Part shown: positions 18,165 through 60,601 of the stretch, in pieces
Numbering within the stretch: the first letter of the stretch is position 1
How the letters are laid out: each line of letters starts with the position of its first letter
Assembly: GCA_021018995.1 (NCBI GenBank)
Contig: CM037590.1
Span: 101,619,097 to 101,683,096, forward strand
Origin: Chloranthus sessilifolius
Lineage: Eukaryota > Streptophyta > Magnoliopsida > Chloranthales > Chloranthaceae
DNA: 64,000 nt
Direction: 5' to 3'
Notes under the pieces: generated by a model
What the model was told of the DNA's origin: nothing
Databases searched by the model: none
The model's input: only the letters and a program-made list of their open reading frames with translations
Program-made: the position numbers and the translations under genes

Positions 18165-18690
18165 TTTATCTAAAAGAACATTTCTAAGATTAATATAAGG
18201 ATACCTCCGTTCACGCCCCATGCATTTACTGAAAGCACCAACAGCGGAAACCCATTGATTGGGTCGGATCAGATGATGGAGATTGTTTTTCACCCAGATC
18301 TTCCACACAAAGGATCTTGAGACTATGTCGCACCTATCAGGCGGTCAGTTTTTATTCCATGTGTCACGTATCCCAAAATATGGCCCTTCAATCATATGAT
18401 ACACATCACGCTCAAATGCGATTTTAGGGCCATAGTTTTTGGATTTGTGATATGTGAAATAAATAACTAACCGTCTGATAAGTGTGACATGATCTCAAGA
18501 TCTATTGAGTTGAAGATCAGAGTAAAAAACAATCTCCATCATCTGATCCGACCCAATCAATGAATTTCCAACGTTGGCACTTTAGTAAAGAGCGTAGGCG
18601 TGAGCAGAGCCACAGAGATACCCATAATGAATAGGATAACAAAGTTCTATCCTCCACTCCAAATGTGGATATAACAAAAATTAAATTTGT
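18165..18690. repeat. Foldback MITE
   Basis: A long imperfect inverted repeat. The left arm contains CCCATTGATTGGGTCGGATC then AGATGATGGAGATTG (about 18251-18285). The right arm contains the reverse complement, CAATCTCCATCATCTGATCC then GACCCAATCAATG (about 18530-18563). The arms continue outward to GTTCACGCC and GGCGTGAGC and inward to paired GATCTTGAGA and TCTCAAGATC. A relative lies at 43678-43888. Such elements are normally mobilised in trans. The superfamily is uncertain because no clean target duplication was found. Confidence 0.6.
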
Positions 18691-18803: not shown

Positions 18804-18895
18804 GATCTGAAATCTGAAATCTAGGCTAACTCGTGTGCAACTAGTTACTGATCTGAAATCTGAAATCTAGGCTAACTCGTGTGCAACTAGTTACT
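18804..18895. repeat. 46-bp tandem duplication
   Basis: A 46-bp unit beginning GATCTGAAATCTGAAATCTA and ending CAACTAGTTACT is present twice in a row without visible mismatch (18804-18849 and 18850-18895), so the duplication is recent. Confidence 0.9.
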
Positions 18896-20410: not shown

Positions 20411-21106
20411 AAAAAAAACCAATTTTTTTTTTTTAAATGATAATTTATTGGTAAGGTCGCATAGTAATTATTCATTTAAATCGATTAGTGTCGTACGTGG
20501 GTTGATAGATATGGCTACTCGTTTTAGATAAGCGGAGGCGCTGTTTAGGAAGGAAAAATAGCGTTGGGCGCTGTTTTGTGAAAAACCCATATTTTAATCC
20601 ATGTAAATGCATTATTTTAAAAAATTTTTTTATCTTTTTTTCAATGCGGAGAAAATTTTGTTCGTTGGATTTCTTCTTATCATGTTGTAGACACCCAAAT
20701 TTGGCCCAAGGCCCAATCGAAACATCTTTCGAGAGAGGCACACTTCTGGGCTTTTGATGGCATGTATGGAACCCTTAGGAACCACCCTAAAAAACTTAGA
20801 AATCACCCTAGATCCCTTAGGAACCTACCCCGAACCTTTAGAAACAAATCCCGACCTTTAGAACCCATTCCGAACCCTAAACCGAACCATATCAAGCTAC
20901 GGATGAGGAGGGGTGCACTGGAAGTAGCTACGGCTATCTACTATGAACAAATTTTATACCATTGAAAAGTAGAGGGCGTCAGCTTTCCAATGGTCCAAGA
21001 ATCGCCCCAATCGGAGTTGTACATCAAAAGATACGACAGTTCGAACCCGGGGGACAAAAGAGTGAAATCAGGTGGGCCCCCCTAGGGATTTCTCCCCAGA
21101 AATGGC

Positions 21107-21305
21107 CTGGCGCAACTAATAGTTGCACCAGTGATAATTTTCCTGCCAGTGATAATTATTAGTTGTGCCAGGCCACTTCTCCCAGGATTTAAGCCTGGCG
21201 CAACTAATAGTTGCACCAGTATTAATTGTGGACCCCACCTCGGATAGCCACCTTTCAGGCACTGTTTTACTGTACATTTGCCTGGCACAACTATTAGTTG
21301 CGCTA
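21107..21305. promoter_or_regulatory. U3 palindrome array, 5' LTR
   Basis: Four units of a near-perfect palindrome lie at 21107-21131, about 21145-21172 (left arm damaged), 21194-21219 and 21281-21305. The consensus is arm TGGCGCAACT, a 3-bp centre AAT or ATT, and arm AGTTGCGCCA, often extended by CC/GG. They sit 283-480 bp upstream of the TATA box. As DNA they could bind a dimeric protein; as RNA they would form hairpins of about ten base pairs. The function is not known. Confidence 0.75.
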
Positions 21306-21586
21306 AGCATATGAACAGTAACTGTTGGTTTTTTTTCAGAAAATTGTGATTGGGGTTTGACTTGTTAACCACCTTGACCTTTAGGGTGTGTTTTGATAGT
21401 TCGGTTGTACCCATTCACTACCTATTTGCAACCCTTTAAGTGGCTTAAAGCCTCACCCCATCATCCACCATTAAAACCACCTTCACACCTTTCTAAGCTC
21501 TCAAAATCTTAGGAAACCTTAGATTTGAGATTATCTAATTGCTAACCCTAATTAGCACTTAAGTGGTCTCCTAATCCACCATTTTC

Positions 21587-21600
21587 CTATAAATAGAGCT
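21587..21600 (+). promoter_or_regulatory. TATA box of the 5' LTR
   Basis: CCTATAAATAGAGC is a strong plant TATA box and is conserved in the right LTR (42595-42608) and the third Ogre-type LTR (about 47945-47958). It marks the U3 promoter for the genomic transcript. Confidence 0.8.
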
Positions 21601-22318
21601 CACCACCCCTTGGTCTAGGGGTTGATAAATTTGTTTAAGAGAGAAAGAGCTTAAAGTGAAAAGTTCTTCCTCTCTTTTGTACACTATTTTCACCCAAATT
21701 TAAGAATCTCTTAACCTCATTTCAAGCTTGTTCTTGCATCTAAAACCCTTAGCCTAGGTGTGTGTGATCCCCTAGCCTCCCTTCCCTACCTCTTAGCTTC
21801 AAGCCTTAGGAGTTAGAATCCCATTTTCCACCATACAAGGCCTTCAAAAGCTCATCAAAGCAAGCCACAGGAGGCTCTCCTACGGTGCTACAAGGGCCCG
21901 AGGGCTCCGGCTCTCCCCTTTCTTATCCTATCTCTTTCTAGCTCCCTCCATCCTCCCATTTGTGCCGTTACACCGCTGACTTTTCGGTAGGGACGAAGGG
22001 GCACAAATAGGATTCTAAGCCCTTTTGGACAAGAGGAAGTTATTTTCTTTTCTTTTACTTTATTTTATTTTTGGCCATTAGTAGAGACTGCTTTAAGCGG
22101 GTTGATCGGGTGCCTAACACCTTCCCGATCGATAACTGAAGTCCCTACCCAAGAGCCTTTGGTGTGGGCCAGATTCAGAGTCATATTTTTAGCACTTCGG
22201 TGCTCATAAAAATGATATAGGTATCCCGAGACACCAAAAGCTCTGGGTGGCGACTATATTTGTTGCAAGTGAGCGCATCGCCGCGACGGGACCGTCATGG
22301 ATCCTACGGTTGCACAGA

Positions 22319-22336
22319 TGGCGACTCTACTGGGGA
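22319..22336 (+). promoter_or_regulatory. Primer-binding site
   Basis: TGGCGACTCTACTGGGGA begins four bases after the LTR end. It has the TGG start and 18-nt length expected for pairing with a tRNA 3' end. Ogre elements have been described as using tRNA-Arg. I could not align it to a tRNA here. Confidence 0.75.
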
Positions 22337-22483
22337 CATAGCTAGTAGAGCTTCCCCTTGAACTAGGCCTTTTTTTTTATTTTTCTAACATTTTATTGCT
22401 GTTTTTATTTTATTTTTACTATTTTTTTTACTCACCCCTTCGATTAAGTCACTTTACTTACCCCTACTTTTACATCATTTATG

Positions 22484-23153: not shown

Positions 23154-23323
23154 GCTTAGTGCAAGTATTAGTTACGCCAGTGCAAAAATTGGGAATTTAT
23201 AACTGGCGCAACTAATAGTTGCGCCAACTTTAAAATCCCAACATTTACCTTGGCGCAACTAATAGTTGCGCCAGTGTAAAAGAGGTGCCCTGCAATCTGG
23301 GCGCATGTATTAGTTGCGCCAGG
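23154..23323. promoter_or_regulatory. Leader palindrome cluster
   Basis: Four palindromes lie at 23154-23180, 23203-23227, 23249-23274 and 23297-23323. The second and third are perfect copies of the U3 palindrome arms. The fourth has left arm GGGCGCATGTA and right arm AGTTGCGCC, a mix of this family's core and that of the LTR at 47055. The cluster precedes a TATA-like sequence (TATATAAA, 23669) and the gag start (23811), so it could serve an internal gag promoter or act as structured RNA leader. Confidence 0.7.
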
Positions 23324-23810: not shown

Positions 23811-26800
23811 ATGTCGTGGGTAGTGGACCCAGCTTACGCCGATCCTGACTCATCCCTATCACATTCCCCAACCCACTCCCATTAGGGAGAAGTTTTTTCC
23901 ACCATCCCCCTCACCTAACCCCCTTTTACCGTTACCGGCCCGTTTAGCGCCCTCATTTTCCCAACCGATATCCCTCAAAATATCTAAAGTCCAACCCCCC
24001 ATTCTCCATCTTTTGCCCAAACCATACCCATGCCAAGTCCAACCCATTTTCCTTCCACATCCACACAAAATCTATTCTCCCAATCCATATCCATGCCTCA
24101 TTTCCCATCTTCCCCCTATAGGCCCGATCCACCCACATTCACATACACCAATTCCTCCCTATCCAACCCCCCACAAATCCCCCCATCTACCTGGGTCATG
24201 CCCATTTCTATCGGGGCCATGCCCGATTTCTTCCAAACATCCACACCCTACCAACCACCATCCCTAAACATCCCTAATCCCTCCCCATCCTCTACCCCAC
24301 CTCAACTCTCTAATCCACCCCATATCTCACCTCTTACCATGGACATGGTCGATAATACCGGGGCCATGCCCAATTTCCCCTCTCCACCCCCCACATCCAA
24401 TCCTTCTTCCATGACCATGATGGAGGAGATGTTTCAAGCCTACTAAATGTGGAAGGCTTCTTAAAACACACCCCCTACTTCACACCCCATGTCCTTAAAC
24501 CCATCTCACACCCTAGCCAATCTCCATGCCCCACTCCCCCATGACCCCCATCAACCCCCCATAATTCACACCATCCAAACCCCCATTGCCCACATGCCCC
24601 AAGGCCTCATGGCCCAACCTCCCACTACCCATACACCCCAGGGCCCATTGGCCCAAACCCTCTTTTCCCACATACCCCAAGGCCCATTGGCCCAAACCCC
24701 CTTGTCCCACATATCCCAGGGCCCCATGACCCAATACCCCACCACCCAAACCTACCCAGGGCCCATGGCCCACACCTATCAAGACCCATTGGGCCAAACC
24801 CATCAAGGGCCCATGGCCCAGACCCACCAAGGACCTATGGCCCATACCCACCAAAGCCCATTGGGCCAAACCATCAAGGGCCCATGGCCCAGACCCACCA
24901 AGGGCCCACGGTCCAAACCCACTAAGGCCCATTGAGCCAAACCCATGAGAGCCCATGGTCCAGACCCACCAAGGGTCCATGGACTAGACCCACCAAGGGC
25001 CCATGACCCATACCCACCAAGGCCCATTGGGCCAAACCCATCAAGGGCCCATGGCCCAGACCTACCAAGGCCCATTGGCCCAAACCTACCTAGGTCCATT
25101 GGCCCAAACCCACCAAGGCCCACTAGCCCAAACCTATCAAGGGCCCTGGCCCAAATCCATCAGTGGCCCATAGCCCAAAATGACTAAGGCTTTATGACCC
25201 AAACCCAAACCCCACACTCATACTTTCCACAATACCCCCAACATTTCACCCAACCTTCACAGCCAGGTCAAACCCATGCCATACTTCAAACCCAATTTTC
25301 CCATGGCCCCACACCCCAGGGCCATCTCCAAACCTTCCCCCATACCCAATAGCCCCATCAGGCCCCACCTCTAAACCAAAATCCTATCACCCAGCAAACC
25401 TTTCCTCACCCCCAATGGGCTCACCCCACCCCCACTCATGTCATTCCCGTCCAACCCAGGCAACAATAACAAGAAAATCTCGCCCTCACTGCACATTATG
25501 TCGACCAGCAGTATGAGGAGGATGAGATTAGAAATAGCGGGGCCTACGTTGGGGCATTGACCAGCCTTAACCCTCCTCCTATAAATGCCTACCCCTTGGT
25601 GGCCCAAAGTGAAGTCTAGCCGATGGCCGAGAAAGTGGCCCCTGCGTCAAAAGAGTCAGAACAGCTAAAAGAACAGTTGAACAAAATACAGAAGCAGCTG
25701 ATGAAAATGGGTGGTGCTGAAATCCATGCCACGGACTTCACAGATTTGTGCTTGTTCGCTGAGGTCCCCCTGCCCCCCAAATTTAAAATACCAGCTTTCG
25801 ACAAATATAATAGAACTGACAATCCAATTACGCACTTGAAGTTCTACTGTGGGGACATGTGCCAATATAGAGGGGACGAAAGACTACTAATAAAAGTCTT
25901 TCAGAAGAGTCTGATCGGGACGGCTTTGAGATGGTTCACATCTTTAGAATCATCCGTGATGAAAATGTGGAAAGATCTGACCCACTTATTCCAAGAGTAA
26001 TATGTTTACAACATAGAAATTGAGCCGCGTAAGTCAGATTTAGCCCGTCTGAGGCAGAACCCGAACGAAACCTTCAACGACTATCTAGGGCAGTAGAGGG
26101 CACTAGCAGCTCAGGTCAGAAATAGAATACCTGATGATGAGTAGATAGAGATGATCTCAAAGAATACTCTGCCAGTGATCTTAGACTTTTTGGTGTACCA
26201 GCAGCAGTCCAGCTTTGCTGATCTGGTGAGAAATGCTAACCAATGTGAGGATGCCATCAGGGAGGGCCGTCTAAACAAGAACACATTGAGTGGACCCAGC
26301 GGGGCTAGGAGATTTTCAGAATAAATAACTGAGAAAAGAACAGGGGCCGATGTTCAAAACATTGCCAATACCAGGCCCAATAATAACAAATCCCCGTTTC
26401 AATTTTAGGCAGCCCCACTAGCACCAGTCAGGCCTGAGCAGATGTAGAGAATAGGGAATGGGTAAGGAATGTAAATGACTCCGGAGCAGAGGAGAGCCCG
26501 CTACAACTGAGTTTTTACGCCTTTGGGGCAATCATTGAGTGTACTTCTGCCTTTGTTAGTAGAAAAGAGATTAATCACTATCTGTCAATCGTAACCTCCT
26601 CACCCGATCTCAAGGAATTATGACCCGAATACCCACTACAATTTTCATTAGGGTCTGGGTCACCCAACTGATCGTTGCTTCCCCTTGAAGCATGCCATCC
26701 AGGATTTGATCGAAACCGAGAAAATCATTCCCCCTGTACCTACTCAGCATACTAATATTCACCAAGTGCCACTATCCCTACATCCTACCGGGGAGCAGGT

Positions 26801-29457: not shown

Positions 29458-31030
29458 TTGGAGGAGCTCTCCAATGAGCTCCTTGACCGGTTTGCCGACT
29501 TTGAGCATGGCCCTACCCCCATTGTCGAAGAGACAGAAGACGTCAATTTAGGGACTGAGGAGATTCCCAGAATAACGAAAATTGAAATGTCGCTATCCTC
29601 TGAAGAAAGGAAAAGCATGATTGACTTCCTTCGATTGTACCAAGACATTTTTGCCTGGTCGTATGAGGGCATGCCTGGTCTGAATACCGATTTGGTCGAG
29701 CATGAGTTGCCCCTCTACCCTGATGTGAAGCCGGTTAAGCAGAAGTTGAGACGTCTTCGACCCGAGTGGATGTTGAAAGTCAAAAATGAGGTCATCAAGC
29801 AATATGATGCGGGGTTTCTCATGGTATCTAAATACCTGCAGTGGTTAGCCAATACTATGCCTGTGTCGAAGAAAGATGGAAAGGTCCGCATGTGCATCGA
29901 TTTTCGCAATTTGAACAGAGCGAGTCCAAAAGATGATTTTCCATTGCCACACATAGACATCTTGGTCGATAACACTGCCAAGAATGGGATGCTCTCTTTA
30001 TGGATGGATTCTCAGGCTACAATCACATAAAGATGGTAGAGGCCGATCGGGAGAAGATTGCATTCATTACTCCATGGGGAACCTTTTGCTGTCGAGTCAT
30101 GCCGTTTGGCCTAAAGAATGTAGGTGCAACATACCAGAGAGCTATGACCGCACTGTTTCACGACATGATGCACCGAGAGATTGAGGTGTACGTCGACGAT
30201 ATGATAGCCAAGTCATTGGAGCGAGGCGATCACTTTGTAAACCTTCAGAAGCTGTTTGAGAGACTGAGGAAGTACAGGTTACGTCTGAACCCACAGAAGT
30301 GCGCTTTTGGTGCTATATCTAAAAAATTGTTAGGATTCATCGTCAGCAGGAGAGGGATCGAGGTCGACCCAGTCAAGGTCAAAGCTATCACATAAATGTC
30401 ACCGTCATCTACTGAGAAAGAGGTCAGAGGGTTCTTAGGCAGAATACAATATATCAATCGATTCATTGCGCAACTAACTCCGATCTGCACGTCGATCTTC
30501 AAGCTACTAAGGAAGAACTCGCCCGTTGAATGGAACAATGATTGTCAGGTAGCATTCGATAAAATCAAAAGCTACCTCCTCAACCCACCTGTTTTGGTAC
30601 CACCCGAGTCAAGGAGACCACTCTTAATGTACCTCTCCATGATGGAAGTCTCGATGGGATGCGTCTTAGGGCAGCATGACGAGACAGGAAGAAGAGAGCA
30701 AGCCATCTACTATTTGAGTAAGAAATTCACTAATTATGAGATGCGCTATTCTCATATGGAGAAAGCATGTCTGGCTCTTGTATGGGCTACTCAGAGGCTC
30801 CGCCATTACTTGTTATCTCAGGCCGTTCTACTTTTGGCTCGCATGGATCCGTTGAAATATCTGTTTAAGAAGCCCACTCTCACTGGGTGGACTGCACGCT
30901 GGCAGCTTTTATTATCTAAGTTCGACATCATGTACGTCACTTAGAAGTTAATCAAGGGGCAGGCACTCGCCGATCATCTTGCCGACAATCCTTTGCCAGA
31001 TTATGAGCCTTTGAGAACTGAATTTCCTAA
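29458..31030 (+). pseudogene. Reverse transcriptase and RNase H
   Basis: The frame opens with a linker and RLYQDIFAWSYEGMPGL, the usual Tat/Ogre entry to RT. VSKKDGKVRMCIDFRNLNRA and SPKDDFPLPHIDILVD follow. A one-base frameshift at about 29999 leads to MDGFSGYNHIKM and ITPWGTFCCRVMPFGLKNVG, then the catalytic YVDD (about 30187). RNase H continues with NYEMRYSHMEKACLALVWAT. Stops at 30393 (before MSPSSTEKEVRGFLGR) and 30942 (before KLIKGQALADHLA) interrupt it. It would copy element RNA into DNA and remove the RNA strand in the particle. Confidence 0.85.
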
Positions 31031-31074
31031 TGAGGACATTCTTTTTATGACAGAAGATGATACTGAAGAGGCAG

Positions 31075-31653
31075 AAGAGTCATGGGTAATGCACTTTGAC
31101 GGGGTAGCAAATGTCGAGGGCTAAGGAGTTGGCGCCACTCTGATTTTGCCGAAAGGATCCCACGTACCCGTCTCTATCAAGCTCAACTTGTACTAACAAC
31201 TTGGCTGAATACGAGGCTTGTGCCGCTGGCCTATAGGCGGCTCTCGATCTCAATATAACTCGCCTTTAAGTGTTTGGCGATTCACAGTTGATCATATACC
31301 AGACGAATGAAGATTGGAAGACGAAAGATGAGAAACTAATTCCTTATCATGAACACCTCGAAGATCTGATAACTTGCTTCCAAGATGTGACATTCTCATA
31401 TGTCCCTCGGATAAGGAATCACTTTGCTGATGCACTAGCAACTTTGGCGTCAATGATAGAAATCTCATACGGTGCTGAGATGAAGCCGATCATGATCGAG
31501 CAGAGGAATGAGCCCACTTTCTACCTCAAGATTGAGGAACCTATGAAGCCTGATGATAAGCCACCTTGGTTCTCAAATATCAAGAATTTTCGCAAGACCC
31601 TAACTTTCCCTGAGGTACATCCAAGACGGACCGACGAACCATTCAACGTCTAG
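31075..31653 (+). pseudogene. Second (archaeal-type) RNase H
   Basis: ESWVMHFDGVANVEG, then TNNLAEYEACAAGL and VFGDSQLIIYQ supply the Asp, Glu and Asp positions of a second RNase H, a feature of Tat/Ogre elements. Stops at about 31122, 31234 and 31267 and a frame change near 31190 break it. The tail (YVPRIRNHFADALATLASM) is the conserved end of the domain. Confidence 0.75.
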
Positions 31654-32816
31654 CGGTAGGCTACGCCATTTGCGGGGAATGCCTTTACAAGCGATCCTAC
31701 AATAATGTTCTACTACGGTGCCTTACGGAAGGTGAAGCAATCAGTATCATGAAGGAGATCCATGAAGGAGTATGCGGAGCCCACGTCAGTGATCACATGC
31801 TTGCTAAGAAAATTCTGCGACAGGGATACTTTTGGACCACTATGGAATCAGATTGCTGCAAACATGTTCAAAAATGCTACAAGTGTCAAGAACACTCCAG
31901 TCTGATACACACTCCTGCCATCGATCTTCACTACATGACCACTCCTTGGCCATTTGCTACTTGGGGCCTTGATGTTGTCAGAATGATTAGCCCAAAAGCA
32001 TCAAATGGGCATCAGTTCATCCTCGTCGCCATTGAATACTTTACCAAGTGGGTAGAAGCAGCATCATACGGCAACATCATAGCCAGTCACGTCGAAAAGT
32101 TTCTTAAGAGTAATATTGTGTGCCGATTTGGAGTACCCTAAGATATCATCACAGACAATGACACCAATTTTGTAAATAAGCGCATCCAAGCCTTCTACGA
32201 GCAATACAAGATCAAGCACCATTGCTCGTCACCTTATCGACCTCAAACTAATGGAGCCGTGGAAGCTGCGAACAAGACGGTCATCCGCATCCTCGATAAA
32301 ATGGTCATCACTTACCGAGATTGGAGCGAAATACTGCCATTTGCCTTATGGGCCTACAGAACATCAATCCGTACCGTTATAGGGGCAACACCATTCTCCC
32401 TTGTGTAAGGAATTGAGGCTGTCCTACCAATAGAGGTTGAAGTATCCTCGCTCCGAATCCTCATGGAATCTGGCTTACCCGAAGCAGAGAGAGAGAGATC
32501 ACGCTTTGATCAGCTGAACTTACTAGATGAGAAAAGGCTCCTAGCTTTGTGTCATACTCAAGTTTACTAGGAGCGAATCGCACGCGCTTACAACAAACGT
32601 GTCCGCGGTCGAGATATAAAGGTAGGAGATACTGTACTGAAGAATATCTTCCCATCCCTCCACGCTGATCCGAGAGGAAAGTTCAAGCAAAACTGGGAAG
32701 GACCTTATGTCACTGGAGAAGTGCTACCAGGATATGCCATCCGCCTCGCCACCATAGACGGAGATCATCTTCCTGAGCCTATCAATGCTGGATACGTTCG
32801 ACGGTTCTACTCTTAG
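31630..32816 (+). pseudogene. Integrase
   Basis: The zinc-binding start has H..H (HEGVCGAHVSDHMLAKKI) and CYKCQEH. The catalytic core has GLDVVRMISPKASNG and GHQFILVAIEYFTKWVEA, then IITDND and PYRPQTNGAVEAANK, giving the Asp-Asp-Glu triad. The C-terminus has ARAYNKRVRGRDIKVGD and NWEGPYVTGEVLPGYAI, ending RRFYS and TAG at 32814. Stops at 32139, 32406 and 32568 inactivate it. It would have inserted the cDNA, producing the 5-bp target duplication seen here. Confidence 0.85.
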
Positions 32817-34275: not shown

Positions 34276-35621
34276 TTAACAGCCTAGCTCGCGCTTCAAT
34301 GCACTAATCTCAGCATGAAGGCCATCTTCTCGGATATTCTGCTCAGACAGCCAGCAACCATGCAGACTCTTATACCTCTTCCGAGAAGAGTCGGTGGCTC
34401 CAAAAGCAACGCTCAGTGATCCCTTCAAACAGAGGACCTCGATCTCTGCTGTGTCTACCCTAACTTTTTCTTGTGCTAAATGTTCTTGCAGGACCCTCTT
34501 CTCGTCCACAAGAAGCTCGATACGGGCTCAGAGTGCCGTCTCCTTCTTTGGCCAGGGGCCTCAAGTGTCAACGATCTCTATCGAATCTGGACCATCGACA
34601 ACAGGCCGCTCAGTCAATAGCCAGGCCTCGTACTCAGAAGAAGTTCTAATAGAATCCCCTTGCTCGATATCACACATCAGCGTCGATTGATGCGTCTCCC
34701 AGAGAGCAGCAATCCTATCCATGTCTCCAGAGGACCCCCTAGAAAAGATCAAATCACATAGAGGGGGTTTGGCCTCGCAGGGCACCTGCTGAGGGCAGCC
34801 AAATTGATGCAATACCCAGAATGGGAAGTAGAAGGTGCTACCAGTCAATCCTACGAGGGTAATGCCCTCATGGTCTCTACTGCGAACTATTGGGAAGGTT
34901 CGGTCCAACCAAGGAAGCCTCCATGTCAGCTTGGCATCGGTCAACTAAAGTTTCAGAGCAGACACATCGCCCTATGGAAGCAAGTGGCACCTAATACAGC
35001 TCGGCAAGCACCAAGTGCATCATGGATTGGCCAGCCTCTAGCTCGGTCAAAATATCACAAATTGCCAATGAGAAGCTCTCCCCCCAGTAAAGAAGAGGAT
35101 TTCAGAAATGAGACCGAGTGCTAGAGCTTTCACATTGAAAATATTCCTAATCGGCAATCTTTGGACGCTTTCATCACCGAAAAGTTCTTTGAGGAATTTT
35201 AGCGAACACCTTGTGGGCCCCCCAATGAGACTTTTCTCATACTCAAGTTTCTTCAAACCGAGAGTAAGGTGAACGGATTTGGAGTAGCCCGGTCGAGGGT
35301 GACTCTTGCAAGGCCCCTGTGAAGCTTCAGGCCAGACAGATTGGATAGCTCCTCAAGGGTTGGGGTTAGCTCCCACTTCCCAAAATGAAATACATGGAAA
35401 TTCATATCCCAAAATGAAGCGGCGACGTAAAGGAGTTCCCACCGTAGAGGAACCTCTAGAAAGGAAGAAAGGCGAGATAGCCCAGGGCGCTCCAAGTCGG
35501 TGAGCTCACTCTCATTCAAGCTCTCGAATTAGGCCGCTAAAAATTTGGGCCCCAAGCCCAACAAAGGGGGTAAATTGGCTCCAGGCCCTCCACGTAAGGG
35601 ATGGTTAGAAAGCGGGTCCAT
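34276..35621 (-). pseudogene. Antisense DUF7745-like gene
   Basis: On the strand opposite gag-pol an ATG at 35621 starts MDPLSNHPLRGGPGANLPPL. After an in-frame TAA (about 35520) the conserved block WELLYVAASFWDMNF then VFHFGKWELTPTLEELSNLS follows, the signature I associate with the plant DUF7745 proteins often found near Ogre-type elements. Later parts include KSLIGGPTRCSLKFLKELFG, MMHLVLAELY and ITLVGLTGSTFYFPFWVLHQ, as in that family. The end is a Glu/Lys-rich coiled-coil-like tail (EKRVLQEHLAQEKVRVDTAE), stopping at 34276. A frameshift near 35256, two more between 35050 and 34940, and TGA codons near 34560 and 34525 inactivate it. No intron is needed. A palindrome cluster and a TATA-like TTATATAC (35764-35757) lie upstream on this strand. 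The function is unknown. The domain name is from memory and should be checked by profile search. Confidence 0.65.
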
Positions 35622-35786
35622 GAACATACACGAATCTTTTGAGAAGATAAAAATTGATGTATAGTGATGGAACCACCTTGGAAATGCAAGAGCAAAAGGA
35701 ACCAGTCAAAGAGGCCAAGTCAAACAAAAAAGAAATGATTTTTGGACTAACTTGGGTATATAAGGACCCACTGCCCCCAGGTTAAA

Positions 35787-35905
35787 CCTGGCGCAACTAT
35801 TAGTTGCGCCAGTGCATTTTGGTCCCATTTTGCTTGGCACAACTATTAGTTGTGTCAGCACAAATTGCTTGAGATTTCAACCTGGCGCAACTAATAGTTG
35901 CGCCA
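35787..35905. promoter_or_regulatory. Palindrome cluster upstream of the DUF7745-like gene
   Basis: Three palindromes lie at 35787-35812, 35833-35858 and 35881-35905, with the same TGGCGCAACT / AGTTGCGCCA arms as in the LTRs (the middle one with GCACAACT and GTTGTGTC variants). They lie 166-284 bp upstream of the antisense ATG at 35621. A TATA-like TTATATAC follows on the minus strand 23 bp beyond the last palindrome. The position suggests a promoter element for the antisense gene. Confidence 0.65.
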
Positions 35906-36272: not shown

Positions 36273-38684
36273 CTATTCCTTGCTTGCGCCCTTGGATTTC
36301 TCGTGACGGTGAGAAGAGCTCTGGAAAGTCCGCATGTCCCCCACCCTAGACCACGCCTGCGAGATCCTACTGAGCAAGGAGCGCGACTCCTTGGCACGGG
36401 CACGCTGCGAGACATGATCAAAATCAAGAGCCAGGATTAGTTGAGGGACAAAGGGTAATGGAATAAATGAAGAGGAGTAAAATAGCAAGGCACTCACCGT
36501 CTCCACGTCCCGCCCTGCCAAGTGACGATGATACTCCGCATACTCCATGGCCGAGTTGAAGTCCTACGTTCAGAACGATACAATATCATCTATCAGGACA
36601 ATCTTAAAAGCATGTACAGAAGGAAACCGAAATGAAGAGAGATTGGAACCACCTCAGGAGGAGGAACACGGACCGCCTTAGCAGAAAGCCACACCTGTCG
36701 ATCCACATCAGTGCAGAGGCTCGAAAGGAAACTATCATCTAGGCACTAAAAGGTCCCATAGACCACGAGCAGATCACCACTAGGGATACCAGCATGAGAA
36801 GTCCCCGACGGACCAGCACCTGAAGAGCCCTCACCTGAGGGGCCCGCACCAGAAGGACCAACACCAGAGGTATCCACCCTTGACATATCAGCCGCACTTG
36901 GCTCGCCTTCCCCATCCGAATCATCCCCTGAAGCAAACTGTGAACAAAATAAAGATCCGATTAGAAGGGACAAAAGTCGAATAAAAGCATAAAGGGAATT
37001 AATCCAAGCCAAGATAAATTACCTGACCGAGTGGCCTGCCAAATGCAAGAAAATTGGCGCTAGGTACAAAGCGCGGCAAGAGGAACCGATGGGGCAGGCA
37101 CTCGTACCAAAGATGATAGTCCCCGGGCACATGGAGGGCATGGATAGGGAGCCCATTGTTGAAGAAGGCCGCGGTGAGCTCCTCAATACTGCCAATGGGA
37201 TTCCAAATATCCGTCGGAGGGTTCACAGGTATGGCGTAGTAGCCCTAGAACTGGTGCACCACCCACTCTCTCAGATAATAAAATCTGGCCCACGCTCCAT
37301 AGAAGAAAATGATGCAGCGGTTATTGAACAGGCGAGAGGGGCCTACAGCTGTCCGATCCCAGAAGGGAGATGCAAGGTACGGGTCAGGGAGGATCTGTCC
37401 AAGCCAAAAGAATCCAAGCAAGTAGCACATTAGTCAAAGGAGATTTTCGAGCTAGAACCAATAAGGGTTGAAAAAGGGTTTTACCTGCTTGAGAACCATC
37501 AAGTCAAGTTGGGACCTCAGACCCATCTCCAAATGCTTTAGGCCCACGTCACGACACCGGGCCTGATGCCAGTTACTGAGGAGAGGATAGGTAAGCACCT
37601 CCGAGTGAAGAAGCGGGCGCCCAGGATGGAAGTGATGATATCCCCATACCTAAAAAAGGAGACAGTACATAGCAGCAGGTTAGTAGCACATACAAACCAT
37701 TTAAGAAAATTGACAAAAGCAAAATAATGAGGGATTACCTCTATGGCAGCCCAAAAACCGACAGCAGACTTGGAATCCCCAGTGGTAACCCGAGCTACAT
37801 TGTACATCAGCCATGCATACCATGCCCCTCCCCAGTCATACTTGTGGACGTCACCCCAGTTGTCCATCACACTCAGCAAGGCCAGGCTGGCTCGGCCCCC
37901 GCTGGCATTAGTAAAAAGGGTCTTGCCCAGCAAGAGTAGGAGAGTGATGCAGGCTAGGACGATCGCCTGCTCTTGCATGATGTAGAGCGCCCTCTCTGGC
38001 TGACCTAGATCCACTAACTCATCAGGGGTGTAAAGTGAGGTCAGCCAAGACATCTTAACCTTAGTGCCATGGGTTTGCCCCCGAGGAGGATAGGCCCCAA
38101 TCAATTAAACGATGTCCCCTCGACTCGGCATCGCGAGATCGGATATCGGTTTCCCCCCTATCTTGACACCGGTAATCATGGCCCAATCAATGGGTGTCAT
38201 AGTCATCTCGGCATACGACATGTGAAAGGTCATTGTCTGAGGGTGAAACCTTTCAATCAGGGCTTTCAGGTAGGCAGCGTCGGCCCTCATGGCAGGGCAA
38301 GATAGAAATTCTCCGAAGCCCACCTGTGCCAGCAAGACCTTCACCACGGGAGGGACATAGAGGTAGAACTCATGGAAGTCAAGCCACCTGCCACGGAATA
38401 TGATATTGGGCAGGTCCTGCACCCAAAGAAAATGCGCATCAGATCACAAAGGCGAAGCAAAAACTGCATAATGGAAATAAATTGAGCCTCTCCTTTACCT
38501 TGCCTGCTATCTCGAAGTTTGAAATGTGAGTATGCTGTTGGTGAAGGAGACTGACCCGGGCAGCCTCGCCCTGCATCTCGAGCCATGGGCCTGCCCTCCG
38601 ATCTACCTAGATGAACTCCTCCCCTCGCGGGCCATATACAATCTCGGGCCCCTCCTCCGGAATATGCTCACCTTCGCCCGACAT
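36273..38684 (-). pseudogene. Antisense multi-exon gene with plant mobile domain (PMD)
   Basis: Seven coding exons on the minus strand join through GT..AG introns of 82-93 bp: 38684-38499, 38416-37739, 37649-37485, 37394-37023, 36937-36653, 36563-36498 and 36404-36273. Every exon length is a multiple of three, so all introns are phase 0 and the total is 627 codons plus stop. The start is MSGEGEHIPEEGPEIVYG. Exons 2-4 carry the plant mobile domain (transposon-derived; aminotransferase-like in some annotations): FHPQTMTFHMSYAEMTMTP, DVHKYDWGGAWYAWLMYNVA, and across the splice AAIE/VWGYHHFHPGRP. Exon 5 has a Gly/Ser/Pro repeat (SGVGPSGAGPSGEGSS). The end is basic (SSSHRHEKSKGASKE). Four in-frame stops (38607, 38105, 37245, 36746) but no frameshift are seen. 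PMD proteins act in silencing and meristem maintenance in plants. Its role in a retrotransposon is unknown. Confidence 0.75.
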
Positions 38685-39792: not shown

Positions 39793-39903
39793 GATTAGTT
39801 GTGCCAGGCAAAATTTTACCCCTTTTTGCTTGGCGCAACTATTAGTTGCGCTAGGCTCTTTTGAGGCCTCTAGTGGCTTGGAGCAACTAATAGTTGTGCC
39901 AGG
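39793..39903. promoter_or_regulatory. Palindrome cluster upstream of the PMD gene
   Basis: Units lie at 39793-39809 (right half only), 39829-39855 and 39877-39903, with the same arms as in the LTRs (variants GCGCAACT / AGTTGCGC and GAGCAACT / AGTTGTGC). They lie upstream of the proposed untranslated first exon. A TTTAAA and a CTTTATTT on the minus strand just beyond are weak TATA candidates. Confidence 0.6.
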
Positions 39904-41714: not shown

Positions 41715-41723
41715 AAAGAGGGG
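41715..41723 (+). promoter_or_regulatory. Polypurine tract
   Basis: AAAGAGGGG lies four bases before the right LTR, the expected place for the plus-strand DNA primer. The same motif, CAAAGAGGGGCATC, precedes the minus-strand LTR that ends at 46971. Confidence 0.8.
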
Positions 41724-41727
41724 TATC

Positions 41728-43324
41728 TGTAAACACCCAAATTTAGCCCAAGGCCCGATAGAAACACCTTTCGAGAGAGGCACACTTCTAGGCTTTTAAT
41801 GGCATATATGGAACCCTTAGGAACTACCCTAGAACCCTTAGAAATCACCCTAAATCTCTTAGGAACCTACCCCGAACCTTTAGAAACTAATCCCGACCCT
41901 TAGAACCCATTTTGAACCCTAAATTGAACCTTATCAAGCTATGGATGAGGAGGGGTGCACCAAAACTAGCTATGGCCATCTATTATAAACAAATCTCATA
42001 TCATTGAAAAGTAGAGGGCGTTAGCTTTCCAACAGTCCAAGAATCACCCCAATCGGAGTTGTACATCAAAAGATACGACTGTTCAAACTCGAAGGACAAA
42101 AGAGTGAAATCAGGTGGGCCCCCCTAGGGATATAGCGCAACTAAAAGTTGCGCCAGGCTATTTCTCCCTAGAAATGGCCTGGCGCAACTAATAGTTGCAC
42201 TAGTGATAATTTTTCCTGGCACAACTATTAGTTGCGCCAGGCCACTTCCCCAGGATTTAAGCTTGGCGCAACTAATAGTTGCGCCAATATTAATTATGGA
42301 CCCCACCTCGGATAGCCAACTTTCAGGCACTGTTTTACTGTACATTTGCCTCGAAAATTGTGATTGGGGTTTGACTTGTTGACCACCTTGACCTTTGGAG
42401 TGTGTTTTGATAGTTCTGTTCATTCACTACCTATTTGCAACCCTTTACGTGGCTCAAAGCCTCACCCCATCATCAACCATTAGAACTACCTTCACACCTT
42501 TCTAAGCTCTCAAAATCCTAGGAAACCTTAGATTTGAGATTACCTAATTGCTAACCCCAATTAGCACATAAGTGGTCTCCTAATCCACCCTTTTCCTATA
42601 AATAGAGCCCCCACCCCTTGGTTTAGGGGTTGAGAAATTTGCTTAAGAGAGAAAGAGCTCAAAGTGAGAAGTTCTTCCTCTCTTTTGTGCACCATTTTCA
42701 CCCAAATTCCAGAATCTCCTAACCTCATTTCAAGCTTGTTCTTGCATCCAAAATCCTTAGCCTAGGTGTGTGTGATCCCCTAGCCTCCCTTCCCTACCTC
42801 TTAGCCTCAAGCCTTAGGAGTTAGAATCCCATTTTTCACCATACAAGGCCTTCAAAAGCTCATCAAAGCAAGCCACGCAAGGCTCTCCTACGGTGCTACA
42901 AGGGCTCGAGGGCTCCGGCTCTCCCCTTTCTTCTCCTATCTCTTTCTAGCTCCCTCCATCCTCTCATTTATGTCGTTACACCGCCGACTTTTCAGTAGGG
43001 ACGGAGGGGCACAAATTAGATTCTAAGCCCTTTTAGGCAAGAGGAAGCTATTTTCTTTTCTTTTACTTCATTTTATTTTTGGCCATTAGTAGAGACCGCT
43101 TTAAGCGGGTTGATCGGGTGCCTAACACCTTCCTGATCGATAATCGAAGCCCCTACCTAAGAGCCTTTGGTGTGGACCTGATTCAGAGTCATATATTTGG
43201 CACTTCGGTGCTCATAAAAATGATATAGGTATCCCGGGACACCAAAAGCTCCGGGTGGCGACTCTATATTTTTTGTAAGCGAGCGCATCGCCGTGACGGG
43301 ACCGTCACGGATCCCACGGTTGCA
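41728..43324 (+). repeat. 3' LTR of the Ogre-type element
   Basis: 1597 bp, starting TGTAAACACCC and ending TTGCA next to the CATGT duplication. The TATA box is at 42595-42608. Relative to the left LTR it has an additional palindrome at 42134 and lacks the one equivalent to 21281, together with about 50 bp around it. Confidence 0.9.
42134..42286. promoter_or_regulatory. U3 palindrome array, 3' LTR
   Basis: Units lie at 42134-42157, 42178-42203, 42215-42241 and 42262-42286. The third is intact here while its partner in the left LTR is damaged. Position and spacing relative to the TATA box match the left LTR. Confidence 0.75.
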
Positions 43325-43357
43325 CATGTGTATTGCAAGATTTTTGTGGTGGTTTTG

Positions 43358-44844: not shown

Positions 44845-45385
44845 TAGGGATGTACATTTTTTGGACTGAACCGACCAAACCGACCAAACTGAATCGAACC
44901 GCTGGGTTTGGTCCGGCTTGGACGGGTACCGGTTTGGGAAAAAGGAAAACCGAAAAGTTTGGTTTGATTTCGGTTCCAAGCCTCCTCAAGCCGAAACCAA
45001 ACTGAACTGAACCGAATGTAGTTTGTAAGTAATTATATATATATATATATAGGCGAGGATTTTGATTAATTTTAAAGGGTATTTAAGTAAAATACATATT
45101 TTTATATAAAACCCTACTCTTGTCTTTAACCTATTCCTAAATCCTAAAGCGGTAAAGTAGAACTTATAGGAAAATCGGTTGACAAGTTGAGAAAATTTTG
45201 ATGTTCAAGTAGAACTTATAGGAAAACTGAAATCGACCGAACCAAACCGAACCGAATTGAATCTGGTTGGTTTGGTTTAAGAGTTAGACGGTTTGGTTTG
45301 GTTTGAAAATTTAAAAACTGATTAGGACCGGTTTGGTTTGTGGTTTTGGTCCAAAACCGACCAAATCGAACCGAATACACCCCTA
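44845..45385. mobile_element. hAT-type MITE, 541 bp
   Basis: The ends are TAGGGATGTA and, inverted, TAGGGGTGTA. The 8-bp sequence GAAATATC flanks it exactly (44837-44844 and 45386-45393), the target size of the hAT superfamily. The interior is made of CCGAACCGAAC / GGTTTGGTTTGG words in inverted order, with an AT-rich centre. It is inserted in the minus-strand LTR. Confidence 0.85.
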
Positions 45386-46336
45386 GAAATATCTAATAAT
45401 CAATGAAGAAATAAAGATCAGACATAAAAGAAAAGTACGCGGCTATAAATAAAGAATAATTGTACGAAACTAATCTCAGTACTGAAACTACTACTATCAA
45501 TAGTCTGCACTAGGATCGAGGTCAGTACCAAGGTGTTGGTACGTGCTTTTTCTAAAATCCTTTCGAATCCCAGAATAAGTGGCCCAATTCGGTCCAAACG
45601 GACTCTGTTTGTGATGAGAAAATATTATAGAATAATAACAAAAAGAAAATATTTAAATGCAAAAAAATAAAAGAAGACAAATTTTAAATAGAGAATACCT
45701 AAGTTGATGCATTCACCAGCTACAGATATTTATAGGCTCTGTAACTCGTCACTGATCACGCTCTGCGGGATGCAGGTTGACTCCTTTACTGAATTTCGGC
45801 CGACCAACTTTAACAGCTATGAGTTACCTAAAGTCTATCTAGTTTTGTTTCCTATTCCTACTGGGACCTATCTAAAGGGGGTTATGGCCTGCTATGCTAA
45901 GGAGGATTGGCCCCGTTCTCGAATACCCTCCATAAGCTCCCTTGGGCAAATCGGTGAGGCTAAGGCTATTTTGGAAATACTGAGAAAGGTTTGAGACCTA
46001 ATTGGCTTTAGAGGCGAATTTCGGCAGGGGTTTCCTAGGGGATGGATCTAAGGCTAAGGGAGCTTGCTCCTTCAGTACTCCTTCGAGAGTCAAGGTTGGT
46101 GGGCCAGTTCCACCAGCTTGACTACCCTGTGTTTTCTAGAGAAGAGTCCACGCTCAGACTGCAACTCAACCCCTTTTTTCAAAAGGAAGAAATCAGAGAG
46201 AACCTCCAATTTTCAAAAGGAATAAGCTTGAGAGAGGAGATTCGTGGAAGAGAATTGGTGAGTTTGGTTGTGGGGTAAGGGTCTATTTATAGGTATATGA
46301 ATAATTCAACGCGTGAGGGAATGTGCACAATTGAGC

Positions 46337-46759
46337 AATTGTGCGCATGGCCTGTTGGGTGTAATTCAATTGCGCGCATGGATCCATGCGTGCAATTCCC
46401 TAGAAGTTGGTCACTGATTGGGAAATGTTCGGCTGAGTGGCTCAGCCGGTGTCCTAGTTTTAATATGCTTGAAACTAATTATGCGCATGGAACCATGCCC
46501 ATAATCCAATTATGCGCATGCAGTCATGCACATAATCGGGGAGTTCGGGCAGTCATAGGAATTTCAATCCTGGTCCAACCTTGGACCAATTACCCACAGC
46601 CAGGGCCACGCGTAATCTAATTAAGCACATATTTAGATGAGCTTAATCTGGGATTTTTGGTCGGTGCACGGAAAGTGTGCCCCAATCCTTTCTGGATTGA
46701 TTTCTCGCATGGAGTCCTGCGTGCAATCTAATTACGATCATGGATCCATGCGCGTAATT
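46337..46759. promoter_or_regulatory. U3 palindrome array, second Ogre-type LTR family
   Basis: Six palindromic units lie at 46337-46366, 46368-46397, 46478-46505, 46509-46536, 46697-46727 and 46730-46759. The best two share the perfect core CATGGATCCATG with GCGC-type flanks and AATT ends; the others are degenerate. The core is unrelated to that of the 20.7-kb element. The location (about 210-640 bp from the LTR start, upstream of its TATA box) is the same. Confidence 0.7.
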
Positions 46760-47446
46760 AGGGAGCTTCCCGGGCCGATTCGGGTCCGAGTCCATGGGTT
46801 GAGATTTCAGCCCAGGATCGACCATACACTATGTAAATAGTATATAGTCCCAACATTTAAGGTTTTGAGGCTTCCAGAGAGGGTTCGTCCATTTTCGAAA
46901 GTCATGGGTAAGGTCAAAGGTTGATTGAATAGGTTTATATACTTCAAGAGGGCAAAAATGGGATGTCTACAGATGCCCCTCTTTGGCGCGTTCTTGTGGA
47001 ACAAGAATGCATCTAAGAAGTAGAAACCCTCCTTTCAAGGTGCCTTCTCGTTTCTCTAGACACCCAAATTTGGCCCAAGGCCCGATTGCAATATACTTTG
47101 AGAAGGGCGCCCCCCTGAGCTTCCGAAAGCATTCCCCCAACCCTTAGGAGTCATCCCAAAACCCTTAGGAGTCATCTTAAAACCCTTAGGAATCATTCCA
47201 AACCCTTAGGAATCAACCCTAACCTTCTCAAACCCATTAGGACCCTTCCCGGGCTAGTTTCAAATCCTCCTGACCAGTAGTTAGAGAGAGTAGTATCAAA
47301 ATTTACAGAAACCTCTGCTGGAGCTGAGTTATAACCATTAGAAAGAGGACTTCCCTAGCTTTCCAACGAGCTAAGAATTGCCTCAATCGAAATTGTATAT
47401 CAAAAGTTACGGCAATTTGAAAATCGGGCAGAATTGCAGGAATATA

Positions 47447-47667
47447 GCCTAGCGCGAGTAATACATCGCCAGGCCAATTTGGGCAGAATTTTGCCTGGCG
47501 CGAGTAATACATGCGGCAGGCAAATTTTGGAAAATTTTGACCTGGCATGTCTAATTCATGCGCCACGCAAAATCTGGTCTTTTTGTGGGCTCCAGGGCGG
47601 GTTCTGAACCTCTGACATCTTCTCAAGCACCATAGCTATGCTTGGCGCGAGTAATACATGTGCCAGG
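47447..47667. promoter_or_regulatory. U3 palindrome array, third Ogre-type LTR
   Basis: Units lie at 47447-47473, 47493-47521, 47541-47567 and 47640-47667. The outer arms CCTGGCGC / GCGCCAGG are as in the 20.7-kb element, but the core reads GAGTAATACATG in place of AACTAATAGTT in three of the four units. Distance from the LTR start (about 390-610 bp) and from the TATA box is conserved. Confidence 0.75.
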
Positions 47668-48405
47668 CTTAGCTGCAGTAACCATGATTTTTTGCTCAAA
47701 ATTCACTTTTGGGATTTGACTTGTTGACCATCTCAATGTTTAGAATGAGTTTCATTAGGACTATTGCACCCCTATTTATCCTATTTGCAACCCTCTAGTC
47801 ATTTGAAACCTCACCCTATCATCTACCATTGAAGACCATTGCCCATTTTTCCAAGACCTTGAGATCCTAGGAAACCTTAGATTAAAAGATTATCTAATTG
47901 CTAAACCTAATTAGCTTTTAAGTACCCTCATAACCTCCCTTTTTCCTATAAATAGAGAGGCACCCCTCCCTTTATAAAGGCTTGAAAAAATTTCCCAAGT
48001 GAGAGAAACCTCTAGTGATCCCTTTCCTCCCTTTTGAGCATTAAAACCTATAAATTCCGGAACTAAGTTCACCCATTTTTATCCCATTTTCCATCATCAA
48101 TCTCCTTGTTTTGATAGGAATTAAGCCTTAGCCTTCTTCTCCTATCCTCTAGCTTCCTAGCCTTAGAGTCTAGAACCCATCTCTCAACCATCAAAGCTTT
48201 CGAAAGCTCATCAAACGCAGCCACGCGAAGATCCACAGCGGTGGTACAAGGGCCCGAGAGCTCCGACTCTCTCCTCTATTCCTCTACCTTCTTTGCTTTT
48301 CCTCTATCTAAGGATTCAAGCTGTTATGCCGTCAAAATTTCAATGTTGGCAGAGAGCTTGATAGGATCGTAGGCTTCGGGCAAGAGGAAGTGCTGCCCAT
48401 TTTCC

Positions 48406-48460
48406 TTTATATATATATATATATAATTATATATATATATATATATATATAAATTATATA
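48406..48460. repeat. Imperfect (AT)n tract
   Basis: AT runs with small interruptions (AATTATAT) inside the third Ogre-type LTR. Confidence 0.85.
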
Positions 48461-48648
48461 CCTCCAAACAGCCATAGTAGAGACTACTTTAAGCGGGTTG
48501 ATTGGGTGCCTAACACCTTCCCGATCGATAACCAAAGCCCCTACCCAAGAGCCTTTGGCGTAGACCAGATCAGAGTCATATTTTTGGCACTTTGGTGCTT
48601 ATAAAAATGATGTAGGTTTCTCGAGACACCAAAAGCTCCGACTGGCGA

Positions 48649-53500: not shown

Positions 53501-53659
53501 AACCTTCAGGAGACTTCACTCCTCCACTAGGGATCACCTAGGGGTTTAAAAGGCTTGTTGCATATGCTAAATGCAACTGTGCTCCCTACATAAATGGCTT
53601 TTCATTCTATTTTTAAATTTTGTCTTTGCTCAGGGACTAGCAAAGCTTAGGTTTGGGGG
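50505..53659 (+). other. Internal region, first copy
   Basis: About 3.15 kb without a recognisable protein. It is T-rich, with exon-less plant-intron-like texture to about 52070. The motif CATTGAGGACAATG followed by TTTGGGGGTATGG (52073-52110) resembles the sequence that precedes the 3' non-coding region in Athila-type elements. A second TTTGGGGGTG just before LTR B is the functional polypurine tract. A poly-A/G stretch lies at 52787-52820. Confidence 0.6.
50514..50531 (+). promoter_or_regulatory. Primer-binding site, first internal copy
   Basis: TGGCGCCGCTGCCGGGGA follows LTR A and matches the tRNA-Asp-type site known from Athila elements. The second copy (55546) has GTTGCC in place of GCTGCC. 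Confidence 0.8.
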
Positions 53660-55536: not shown

Positions 55537-56573
55537 ACAAGTTTTTGGCGCCGTTGCCGGGGAATAGATTTTAAAATTGGTAGACCTAAGTTTTTCAATT
55601 TTGTAGATTTGATTTTCATTTTAATTTTTGCTTTAAAACTGCACGTTGCATTCCAAGTGCTTGATTAAATGTCTACTGCAGTTTTGTATAGAAAACCTGT
55701 TTTACTGCAGCAGAATTTTTTTTATTTTTTCGAGTTTTTATTCTTTGCCTTCTAGTTATTTGAATAAATGCTGCTGCCACTCTTTTGTCTTTTTGTCAAA
55801 TTTGGGCAAGAGCTTTGAGTTTTTCTTTTTATTTTGTCAATACTTGAATAAGGTATCTTCTGCTTTTGGATTTTTTGCAGATCTGGGCAAGTCAACATGG
55901 AGCATCTGGACTAAAGTCGGAGCAGATCCGCTTGAGTTTGCATCCTTCTCCTTTGCATTCATTTTCTATTTTTAAATTCTTGAGAACCGAGCTCATTGTG
56001 TTTAATGTTTGTTTTGATTATAATTTCTCTTTTAGGCATCTTGATTTTTTCTTTCTTTTTTTTACAAAACCAAATACAAAATAAAAGAAGTCGAAACCCA
56101 AATAGAAAATCTCAGTTGTTTCTCATTATTTTCAAGTAGTAAATAAGGGCTCTTGTTGAGCCAGTGATCAAAACAAGTAAAAAAAAAAATAGAAAATTAT
56201 AAAAACAAAAATATATATATATATAGATATCTTAGGATGGGTTTTTTCCATTTGCATCCACTTTTCCCATCCTGGACTCTTTGAGATCATTTTTTCTTTT
56301 TAGGAATCATGTAGGATAATGAGTAGTGAATCATAGGCTATTTTGAATATTCAATTGACCCACTGATTTCATTTTCCTTCGAGATTTCTTCATCATAAAT
56401 GGGTCTCAGCTGTGTGTGAACCCTGTTTTTAATATGTGCTCCCATGCTTCATTATTTTTTTTTATTCATACACATCAGCAACAAAGGGGTCAGTCTTATG
56501 AATCTTGCTTTTCACTGTATTCCTGCTAATCATTTTTATAATCACTTAGATTCATAAGTATCTCAGGCTTTTG

Positions 56574-56608
<35 letters not shown>

Positions 56609-60593: not shown

Positions 60594-60601
60594 AGAGGCG
60601 A

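Follow-up and report, generated by a model that had tools for sequence, protein, structure and literature searches.

The closest described counterparts of the system reported here are the VANDAL transposons of Arabidopsis and their VANC motifs. According to the accessible parts of the two main reports, short family-specific motifs form dense tandem arrays in non-coding parts of these elements, the units of an array change in concert, and an element-encoded protein is proposed to co-evolve with the motif (PMC5735166; PMC10398659). The Ogre-like LTR retrotransposon of Chloranthus sessilifolius that we describe resembles them, since it carries family-specific motif arrays in non-coding regions that change together, with an element-encoded binder as a candidate. 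Nevertheless, the two systems differ. The first difference is in the kind of element: VANDALs are DNA transposons, whereas the present element is an LTR retrotransposon. The second lies in the motif, as VANC motifs are 8-9 bp long (with VANC21 sites in one orientation), whereas the units here are dyads of 21-29 bp with a fixed frame; the word palindrome is absent from the main text of PMC5735166. The arm TAGTTGCGCC is similar to the VANC6 motif AGTTGTCC, probably by chance (PMC5735166). The third concerns the protein: binding has been demonstrated for VANC, whereas the proteins of our system are candidates, of the PMD type.

Elements of the Tat lineage offer another comparison. Maize Grande (gene23), Retand (Transposase_28/TRP28 ORFs) and Ogre (PMD eORFs) have an extra ORF between pol and the 3' LTR, as here; the accessory ORF is antisense in Grande and Retand, and in Grande it has its own promoter and a nuclear protein (PMC7264820; PMC11963269; PMC6317226). 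However, an operator array common to the LTR and the antisense genes is not described in the accessible text of these three papers, and the string 'palindrom' is absent from PMC7264820 and PMC6317226 and occurs in PMC11963269 only within a cited title. The PMD family also includes MAIN and MAIL1, which, unlike our genes, are host genes with roles in silencing and gene regulation (PMC5418596; PMC7156037). The same sources say that the PMD-A1 and PMD-A2 clades are encoded exclusively by Gypsy elements and that genes needing MAIN/MAIL1 are enriched for a promoter motif, 'DOWN'; the term 'DNA binding' is absent from PMC7156037. PMD genes of tea have been described as sources of phasiRNAs (PMC10673657). 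Both PMD-like genes of the present element, referred to below as gene 1 and gene 2, lie between the integrase and the 3' LTR. A further lead comes from Silene, where TRAYC is linked to Retand. Two otherwise different TRAYC-like satellites have a 73-bp imperfect palindrome as their sole similarity; being satellites with a single long palindrome, they are a lead only (PMC3212565, as far as accessible).

Anatomy of the element and its arrays

The window, by which we mean the whole 64-kb stretch of DNA analysed, contains a 22.6-kb Ogre-like LTR retrotransposon at 20686-43324. Its LTRs, each about 1.6 kb, are 86.8% identical over a 1664-column alignment. The features are as follows.

20681-20685 (left) and 43325-43329 (right), no strand: target-site duplication CATGT, 5 bp, read by eye
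20686-22314, plus strand: 5' LTR (TGTAGACACCC...TTGCA), from the LTR alignment with ends read by eye
21108-21305, plus strand: 5' U3 array, units 21108-21130, 21148-21170 (degenerate), 21196-21218 and 21283-21305
21588-21596, plus strand: TATA box of the LTR promoter, TATAAATAG, about 280 bp past the last U3 unit and similarly placed in relatives
22319-22337, plus strand: putative primer-binding site TGGCGACTCTACTGGGGAC, placed just after the 5' LTR end
23157-23321, plus strand: 5' leader array, four units spaced 47, 47 and 48 bp
25620-26000, plus strand: gag fragment (Pfam Retrotrans_gag, E 0.0074, below the curated cut-off)
29973-32408, plus strand: reverse transcriptase, RNase H, second RNase H (RVT_3) and integrase in broken frames (Pfam)
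34276-35528, minus strand: antisense gene 1, a DUF7745/PMD protein, broken in the window (Pfam)
35758-35763, minus strand: TATA box of antisense gene 1 (TATATA), from homologue comparison
35789-35905, plus strand: gene 1 upstream array, three units (35789, 35835, 35883), from motif matches
36273-38443, minus strand: antisense gene 2, a PMD protein, broken in the window (Pfam)
39796-39901, plus strand: array upstream of gene 2, half unit 39796-39808 and units 39831 and 39879
41715-41727, plus strand: polypurine tract AAAGAGGGGTATC, read directly
41728-43324, plus strand: 3' LTR, from the LTR alignment with ends read by eye
42133-42286, plus strand: 3' U3 array, four good units (42133, 42180, 42217, 42264), from motif matches

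Within pol, the Pfam E-values are 3.6e-20 for RVT_1, 2.7e-25 for RT_RNaseH, 1.7e-9 for RVT_3 and 4e-7 for Integrase_H2C2, while rve (1.2e-5) falls below its cut-off. The second RNase H (aRH; RVT_3 at 31270-31653) lies between RT_RNaseH and the integrase, an arrangement used as an Ogre criterion and common to Retand too (PMC6317226). PMD-type extra ORFs are present as the two antisense PMD-like genes; such an ORF is given for 57% of Ogre elements, and Transposase_28 for 23% of Retand elements (PMC6317226). Large size and a primer-binding site complementary to tRNA-Arg are further Ogre criteria (PMC9289625), and the element is large indeed (22.6 kb, with LTRs of about 1.6 kb). The second RNase H between RNase H and integrase, together with the PMD ORFs, would fit Ogre, of the Tat clade of Ty3/gypsy, as defined in the accessible part of PMC6317226.

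The motif TGGCGCAACTNNNAGTTGCGCCA has 15 matches in the window at up to three mismatches, against 0 in 100 shuffles. With degenerate copies included, the count for the element rises to about 18 palindromic units. These form five arrays, of a period near 47 bp, located in both U3 regions, in the 5' leader and upstream of the two antisense PMD/DUF7745 genes. In full, the symmetric unit reads GCCTGGCGCAACTA-W-TAGTTGCGCCAGGC, with 14-bp arms on either side of one central A or T. A first-pass annotation had picked out the array in the 5' U3, an observation that proves real and larger in extent than described; its figure of about 18 units per element stands if degenerate units are counted, and the matching array that it placed in the other LTR is there, with four good units. 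It had counted four copies in the 5' U3, of which three are indeed near-perfect, but the fourth (21148-21170) is degenerate, with 7 mismatches and 6/11 pairs. Its statement that this was not a simple tandem array was wrong. In the three internal arrays successive units start 46-48 bp apart, and the units are a diverged tandem array whose drift is mainly in spacer sequence. In U3, the spacing is 40, 48 and 87 bp on the 5' side and 47, 37 and 47 bp on the 3' side, with about 37, 47-48 and 98 bp in many relatives. Two findings go beyond that annotation: internal arrays precede two antisense PMD genes, and other subfamilies carry other palindromes.

The LTR TATA box follows the U3 array at a distance of about 280-480 bp; near the 5' leader array, inspection by eye gave no obvious TATA box. 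The last leader unit (23299-23321) is a hybrid with one CATG and one CAAC half-site. The same hybrid recurs at C1:2723749, 35533407, 48142745, 48966200 and 61217207. Two of these copies, the one in the window and that at C1:2723749, are situated some 2 kb downstream of U3. The hybrid may be a site for a heterodimer, or it may represent a transitional state.

Other repeats surround the element. Upstream of the TATA box of a minus-strand LTR at about 45000-46971 (start near 46971) are palindromes built on another frame (ATTnnGCGCATGGATCCATGCGCnnAAT); within this single LTR their outer pairs ATTAT/ATAAT, ATTGC/GCAAT and ATTAC/GTAAT are compensated changes. A third LTR-like stretch (about 47055-48648, plus strand) is related to LTR A, with 70-72% identity over two stretches and 89% in U5; it carries period-47 units of a CGAG/CATG hybrid type and ends at the start of 5-kb repeats. 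These repeats (48643-60594) comprise two tandem copies and a partial third. The unit is about 5.0 kb long, the copies are 92-94% identical, and every one contains a 21/94-bp minisatellite. Upstream of the element are an exact 46-bp direct duplication (18804-18895) and a 122-bp inverted repeat, 83% complementary (18232-18583).

Conservation and variation of the units among relatives

The genome comprises 2.17 Gb in 32 contigs, with matches at tens of Mb on C1-C15 and below 1.5 Mb on the other contigs seen; the perfect 23-mer palindrome occurs 9,107 times in it. Relatives of the LTR were found through a U5 anchor about 0.8-1.0 kb downstream of the palindromes, and so were not picked by palindrome. 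The sample consists of 90 U3 segments from the first 100 of 4,065 anchor matches listed, all on contig C1. Palindromes of any sequence with at least 11 of 14 pairs number 195 in 71 of the 90 segments (some outside the units), compared with about 2.7 in base-composition shuffles, and the arrays hold similar positions across the U5-anchored LTRs. At this 11/14 threshold 19 of the 90 segments had no palindrome; six of these lack significant similarity to palindrome-bearing segments, and the others match such segments over part of their length or have weaker units. The inner tetramers of the segments are CAAC (49), CAAG (4), TATG (3), TAAC (3), TGTG (2), CATC (2), TGTA (2) and CATG (1), and five palindrome-bearing segments of the 90 fall outside the standard frame. 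In two LTRs with the same U5 anchor (L016 and L018) there are numerous palindromes, irregularly spaced, whose sequence (GATTAATCGATT...AATCGATTAATC) is unrelated.

The first-pass annotation had proposed that arms should be better conserved than spacers and should change in a compensatory manner, and both expectations are borne out. Among the 66 A-type segments of the 90, divergence from the majority base at A/T sites is 3.4% in arms, 21.7% in spacers and 17.5% in flanks, a comparison in which the aligner may anchor on arms and in which gaps take up about 19% of alignment cells in arm columns versus 2-14% in spacers. In the same segments the values for arm, spacer and flank are 19.4, 38.8 and 33.3% in CpG, 11.5, 31.2 and 34.3% in CHG, and 8.0, 26.5 and 19.6% in CHH context. 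Since the gap between arm and spacer holds within each base context, base context does not explain it. Unit 4 could be extracted between flanking anchors in 46 of the 90 segments, almost only of A-class. As for compensation, inner arm segments are swapped symmetrically between subfamilies. We rejected a simple tandem satellite, for which the period of about 47 bp is real but the arms are conserved and the spacers are not, and also insertions of an unrelated short element, because the position of the units with respect to TATA and U5 is similar from one subfamily to another.

Genome-wide, the frame GGCGnnnnTA-W-TAnnnnCGCC is found at 34,550 sites, against three for a reversed control. With a purine at the first variable position only six sites remain (control, two); owing to this near-absence, the frame can be written GGCGYnnnTA, constant outside and variable inside. 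Such a frame would be expected if the proteins of one family retained part of their contacts while altering the rest. The inner tetramers CAAC, TATA, TGTA, TGTG, TATG, CATG and CAAG distinguish subfamilies. Three pattern searches covered both arms with the inner positions left free, and among the first 50 sites listed in each, from which the classes were taken, the inner tetramers of the two arms match in 33, 44 and 43. Half-sites dealt anew give 24.4, 26.7 and 31.2 matches of 50, and 0 of 20,000 shuffles reach the observed value in any search, a comparison that ignores kinship of copies. Hybrid sites with two different half-sites also exist, some of them recurrent.

Different arrays of one element usually agree in class. 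Among perfect sites in C1:50.4-69.37 Mb, with six mixed sites dropped beforehand, 24 of the 30 pairs of neighbouring arrays 1-16.5 kb apart are of one class (reached by 0 of 20,000 permutations, mean 7.9), as are 18 of the 21 pairs within 6 kb (0 of 20,000, mean 5.5), and without CATG/CAAG sites the concordance is 23/27. Four of the six discordant pairs look like junctions between elements, judging by spacing and company; the other two could lie within one element (TATA/TATG 2.7 kb apart at 62.52 Mb, and CAAC/CATG 4.1 kb apart at 68.48 Mb). Judged by spacing, a plus-strand C-class element (68329940-68351641) has the motif at the 5' U3, the gene 1 array, the gene 2 array and the 3' U3, and a minus-strand C-class element (69292191-69314188) has it at all five arrays. 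Reverse transcription homogenizes the two U3 copies, but not the internal arrays.

Antisense PMD genes and their upstream arrays

In the window, gene 1 matches DUF7745 (4.3e-6) and PMD (1e-3) on separate fragments. Open copies elsewhere encode 498-499 residues, and one of 499 residues (L040) scores 9.8e-16 for PMD and 1.8e-12 for DUF7745. The nearest unit of the gene 1 array ends 26 bp from the antisense TATA box, with its centre about 37 bp away. Gene 2 matches PMD at 38105-38443 (1.6e-8, just under the curated cut-off) and, below threshold, DUF1985 (E 0.042); its relatives reach 5.4e-16 (L141) and 3.1e-13 (L144) for PMD.

Upstream palindromes accompany gene 1 in three subtypes. In the A-type set, the best 30 of 150 scored matches (7,046 candidates, window copy included), A-class palindromes lie upstream in 28 of 30 copies, typically at about -273, -320 and -367, and a TATA box lies at -220 to -252 in 24 of the 30, the window copy among them. 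In the C-type set, 20 copies picked down a list of 150 scored matches (7,163 candidates), C-class palindromes lie upstream in 19, mostly at about -330, -283 and -236. About half of the 20 C-type stretches (L148-L166) have an extra palindrome near -188 that coincides with the TATA box, where TBP could face competition from a bound protein. Palindromes of the TGTA class accompany a third subtype (L145). A motif screen of L146, a stretch expected to hold a TATG-type gene 1 promoter, gave no standard-frame array and no gene 1 frame. Gene 1 subtype and palindrome class are co-inherited with the subfamily, and their association is no proof of interaction.

For gene 2 the set was 15 of 150 scored matches. 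A-class units lie upstream in 10 of the 15, about 1.3-1.7 kb before the PMD match; one further homologue (11/15) has a weak 10/14 unit, and at 11/14 five of the 15 upstream stretches had no palindrome. Gene 2 has no clear TATA box, and the region with the array is its presumed promoter.

Pairwise dN/dS of gene 1 is 0.06-0.35 where calculable among six open copies or fragments, which were picked for open frames, a bias toward low values. Between A and C gene 1, synonymous sites are near saturation (pS 0.71-0.80). Since the frame and the 47-bp period are kept across this divergence, the layout of the arrays has outlived most neutral sequence similarity. A Pfam search of gene 1 and gene 2 returned no known DNA-binding domain, and a PDB sequence search with the gene 1 profile returned no relative. 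By eye, the C-terminus of gene 1 resembles a coiled coil with a basic stretch, which could serve dimerization.

Operator reading and its alternatives

We consider it probable that the palindromes serve as DNA operators to which a dimeric factor binds sequence-specifically; this factor would most plausibly be encoded by the element and act in VANC-like anti-silencing or autoregulation. Each unit would be bound by a dimeric protein, one monomer per half-site GGCGYnnnTA around the central A/T, with GGCG and TA as constant contacts and the inner tetramer conferring subfamily specificity. Because arrays occur in U3, in the 5' leader and upstream of both antisense PMD genes, one factor could govern the genomic-RNA and accessory-gene promoters jointly. 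The factor would most likely be the element's own product, with the antisense gene 1 or gene 2 protein as first candidates, and its output might be to counter host silencing at copies of its own family, as VANC does, or to close an autoregulatory loop. It is from the observed anatomy, conservation, two-arm covariation, class agreement within elements and association with gene 1 subtypes that we infer protein binding, dimerization, the identity of the factor and its regulatory output.

Sites for host factors are common in the U3 regions of LTRs. The palindromes may have been captured as an enhancer bound by a host dimeric transcription factor, e.g. of the NAC type with its bipartite palindromic sites, with different paralogues used by different subfamilies. 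This is a reading that we take seriously but think unlikely. Co-inheritance alone could yield the association of gene 1 with the motif, and the T-class half-sites GGCGT include CGT, the NAC core (NAC review, PMC4844398, as far as accessible); an AtNAP-bound AAO3 fragment given there includes GGCGCAACTATAA, although CGT is present in it as well. However, A-class sites lack CGT. Furthermore, a conserved host protein would be expected to hold its site still, whereas at least seven half-site classes coexist in one genome, and CAAC, TATA and TGTA each recur in several arrays of one element. As the half-site classes diverge between families within one host nucleus, whatever reads them is more likely to evolve along with the element than along with the host.

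Quasi-palindrome correction is an established mutational route. The units could be kept up without function, either by template-switch self-repair during reverse transcription or replication or by gene conversion that homogenizes the arrays, for which tandem 47-bp repeats and retroelement recombination provide the opportunity. Local correction nevertheless leaves unexplained why arrays up to about 15 kb apart agree; conversion should copy the spacers too, yet these diverge, and the outer arms differ among units of one element. Neither process easily accounts for arrays whose position with respect to TATA has persisted while synonymous sites diverged nearly to saturation, and we hold functionless upkeep to be quite improbable.

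The first-pass annotation had offered a dimeric protein site or an RNA hairpin, and while conservation and symmetric change of the arms favour the former, we give hairpins in the genomic RNA (for packaging, dimerization, stability or as a small-RNA source) very little credence: RNA stems would likewise fit two-arm covariation, and a cruder count over 187 U3 units gives G-U over A-C pairs as 113 versus 80 in core pairs 4-14 and 217 versus 135 in all 14, but 84 gene 1-upstream units give 32 versus 38 (core) and 40 versus 93 (all 14), aligned U3 arms have about equal C>T (132/1271, 10.4%) and G>A (121/1274, 9.5%), pairing alone does not require the half-site sequence that the arrays share, and the gene 1 arrays lie upstream of the antisense TATA box and so outside the presumed gene 1 transcript. 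The asymmetry of G-U and A-C is thus mixed and mostly negative, and the hairpin is disfavoured.

Returning to operators for a dimeric factor, the system may be regarded as the counterpart, in design, of VANC-type motif arrays in an LTR retrotransposon, with the binder as a candidate. Full-text searches, mostly of papers outside subscription, did not find palindromic arrays common to an LTR and antisense genes. A wider proposal, which we advance tentatively, is that Ogre-type elements run private two-part circuits, each pairing an antisense PMD protein with palindromic operators in every promoter region of the element, circuits which would have been repeatedly re-tuned through the inner tetramer within a constant frame, so that many insulated families could coexist. 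Ikeda et al. regard the function of the PMD domain as still to be established and speculate on anti-silencing for MULE elements only (PMC5418596, as far as accessible). If true, such circuits would give the PMD proteins of retrotransposons a function, one directly testable by swaps of protein and site, since nature supplies tens of thousands of sites in which the frame is fixed and the core can change, in association with gene subtypes. They would also suggest that LTR retrotransposons too, besides the VANDAL DNA transposons, act on their own copies by family-specific recognition.
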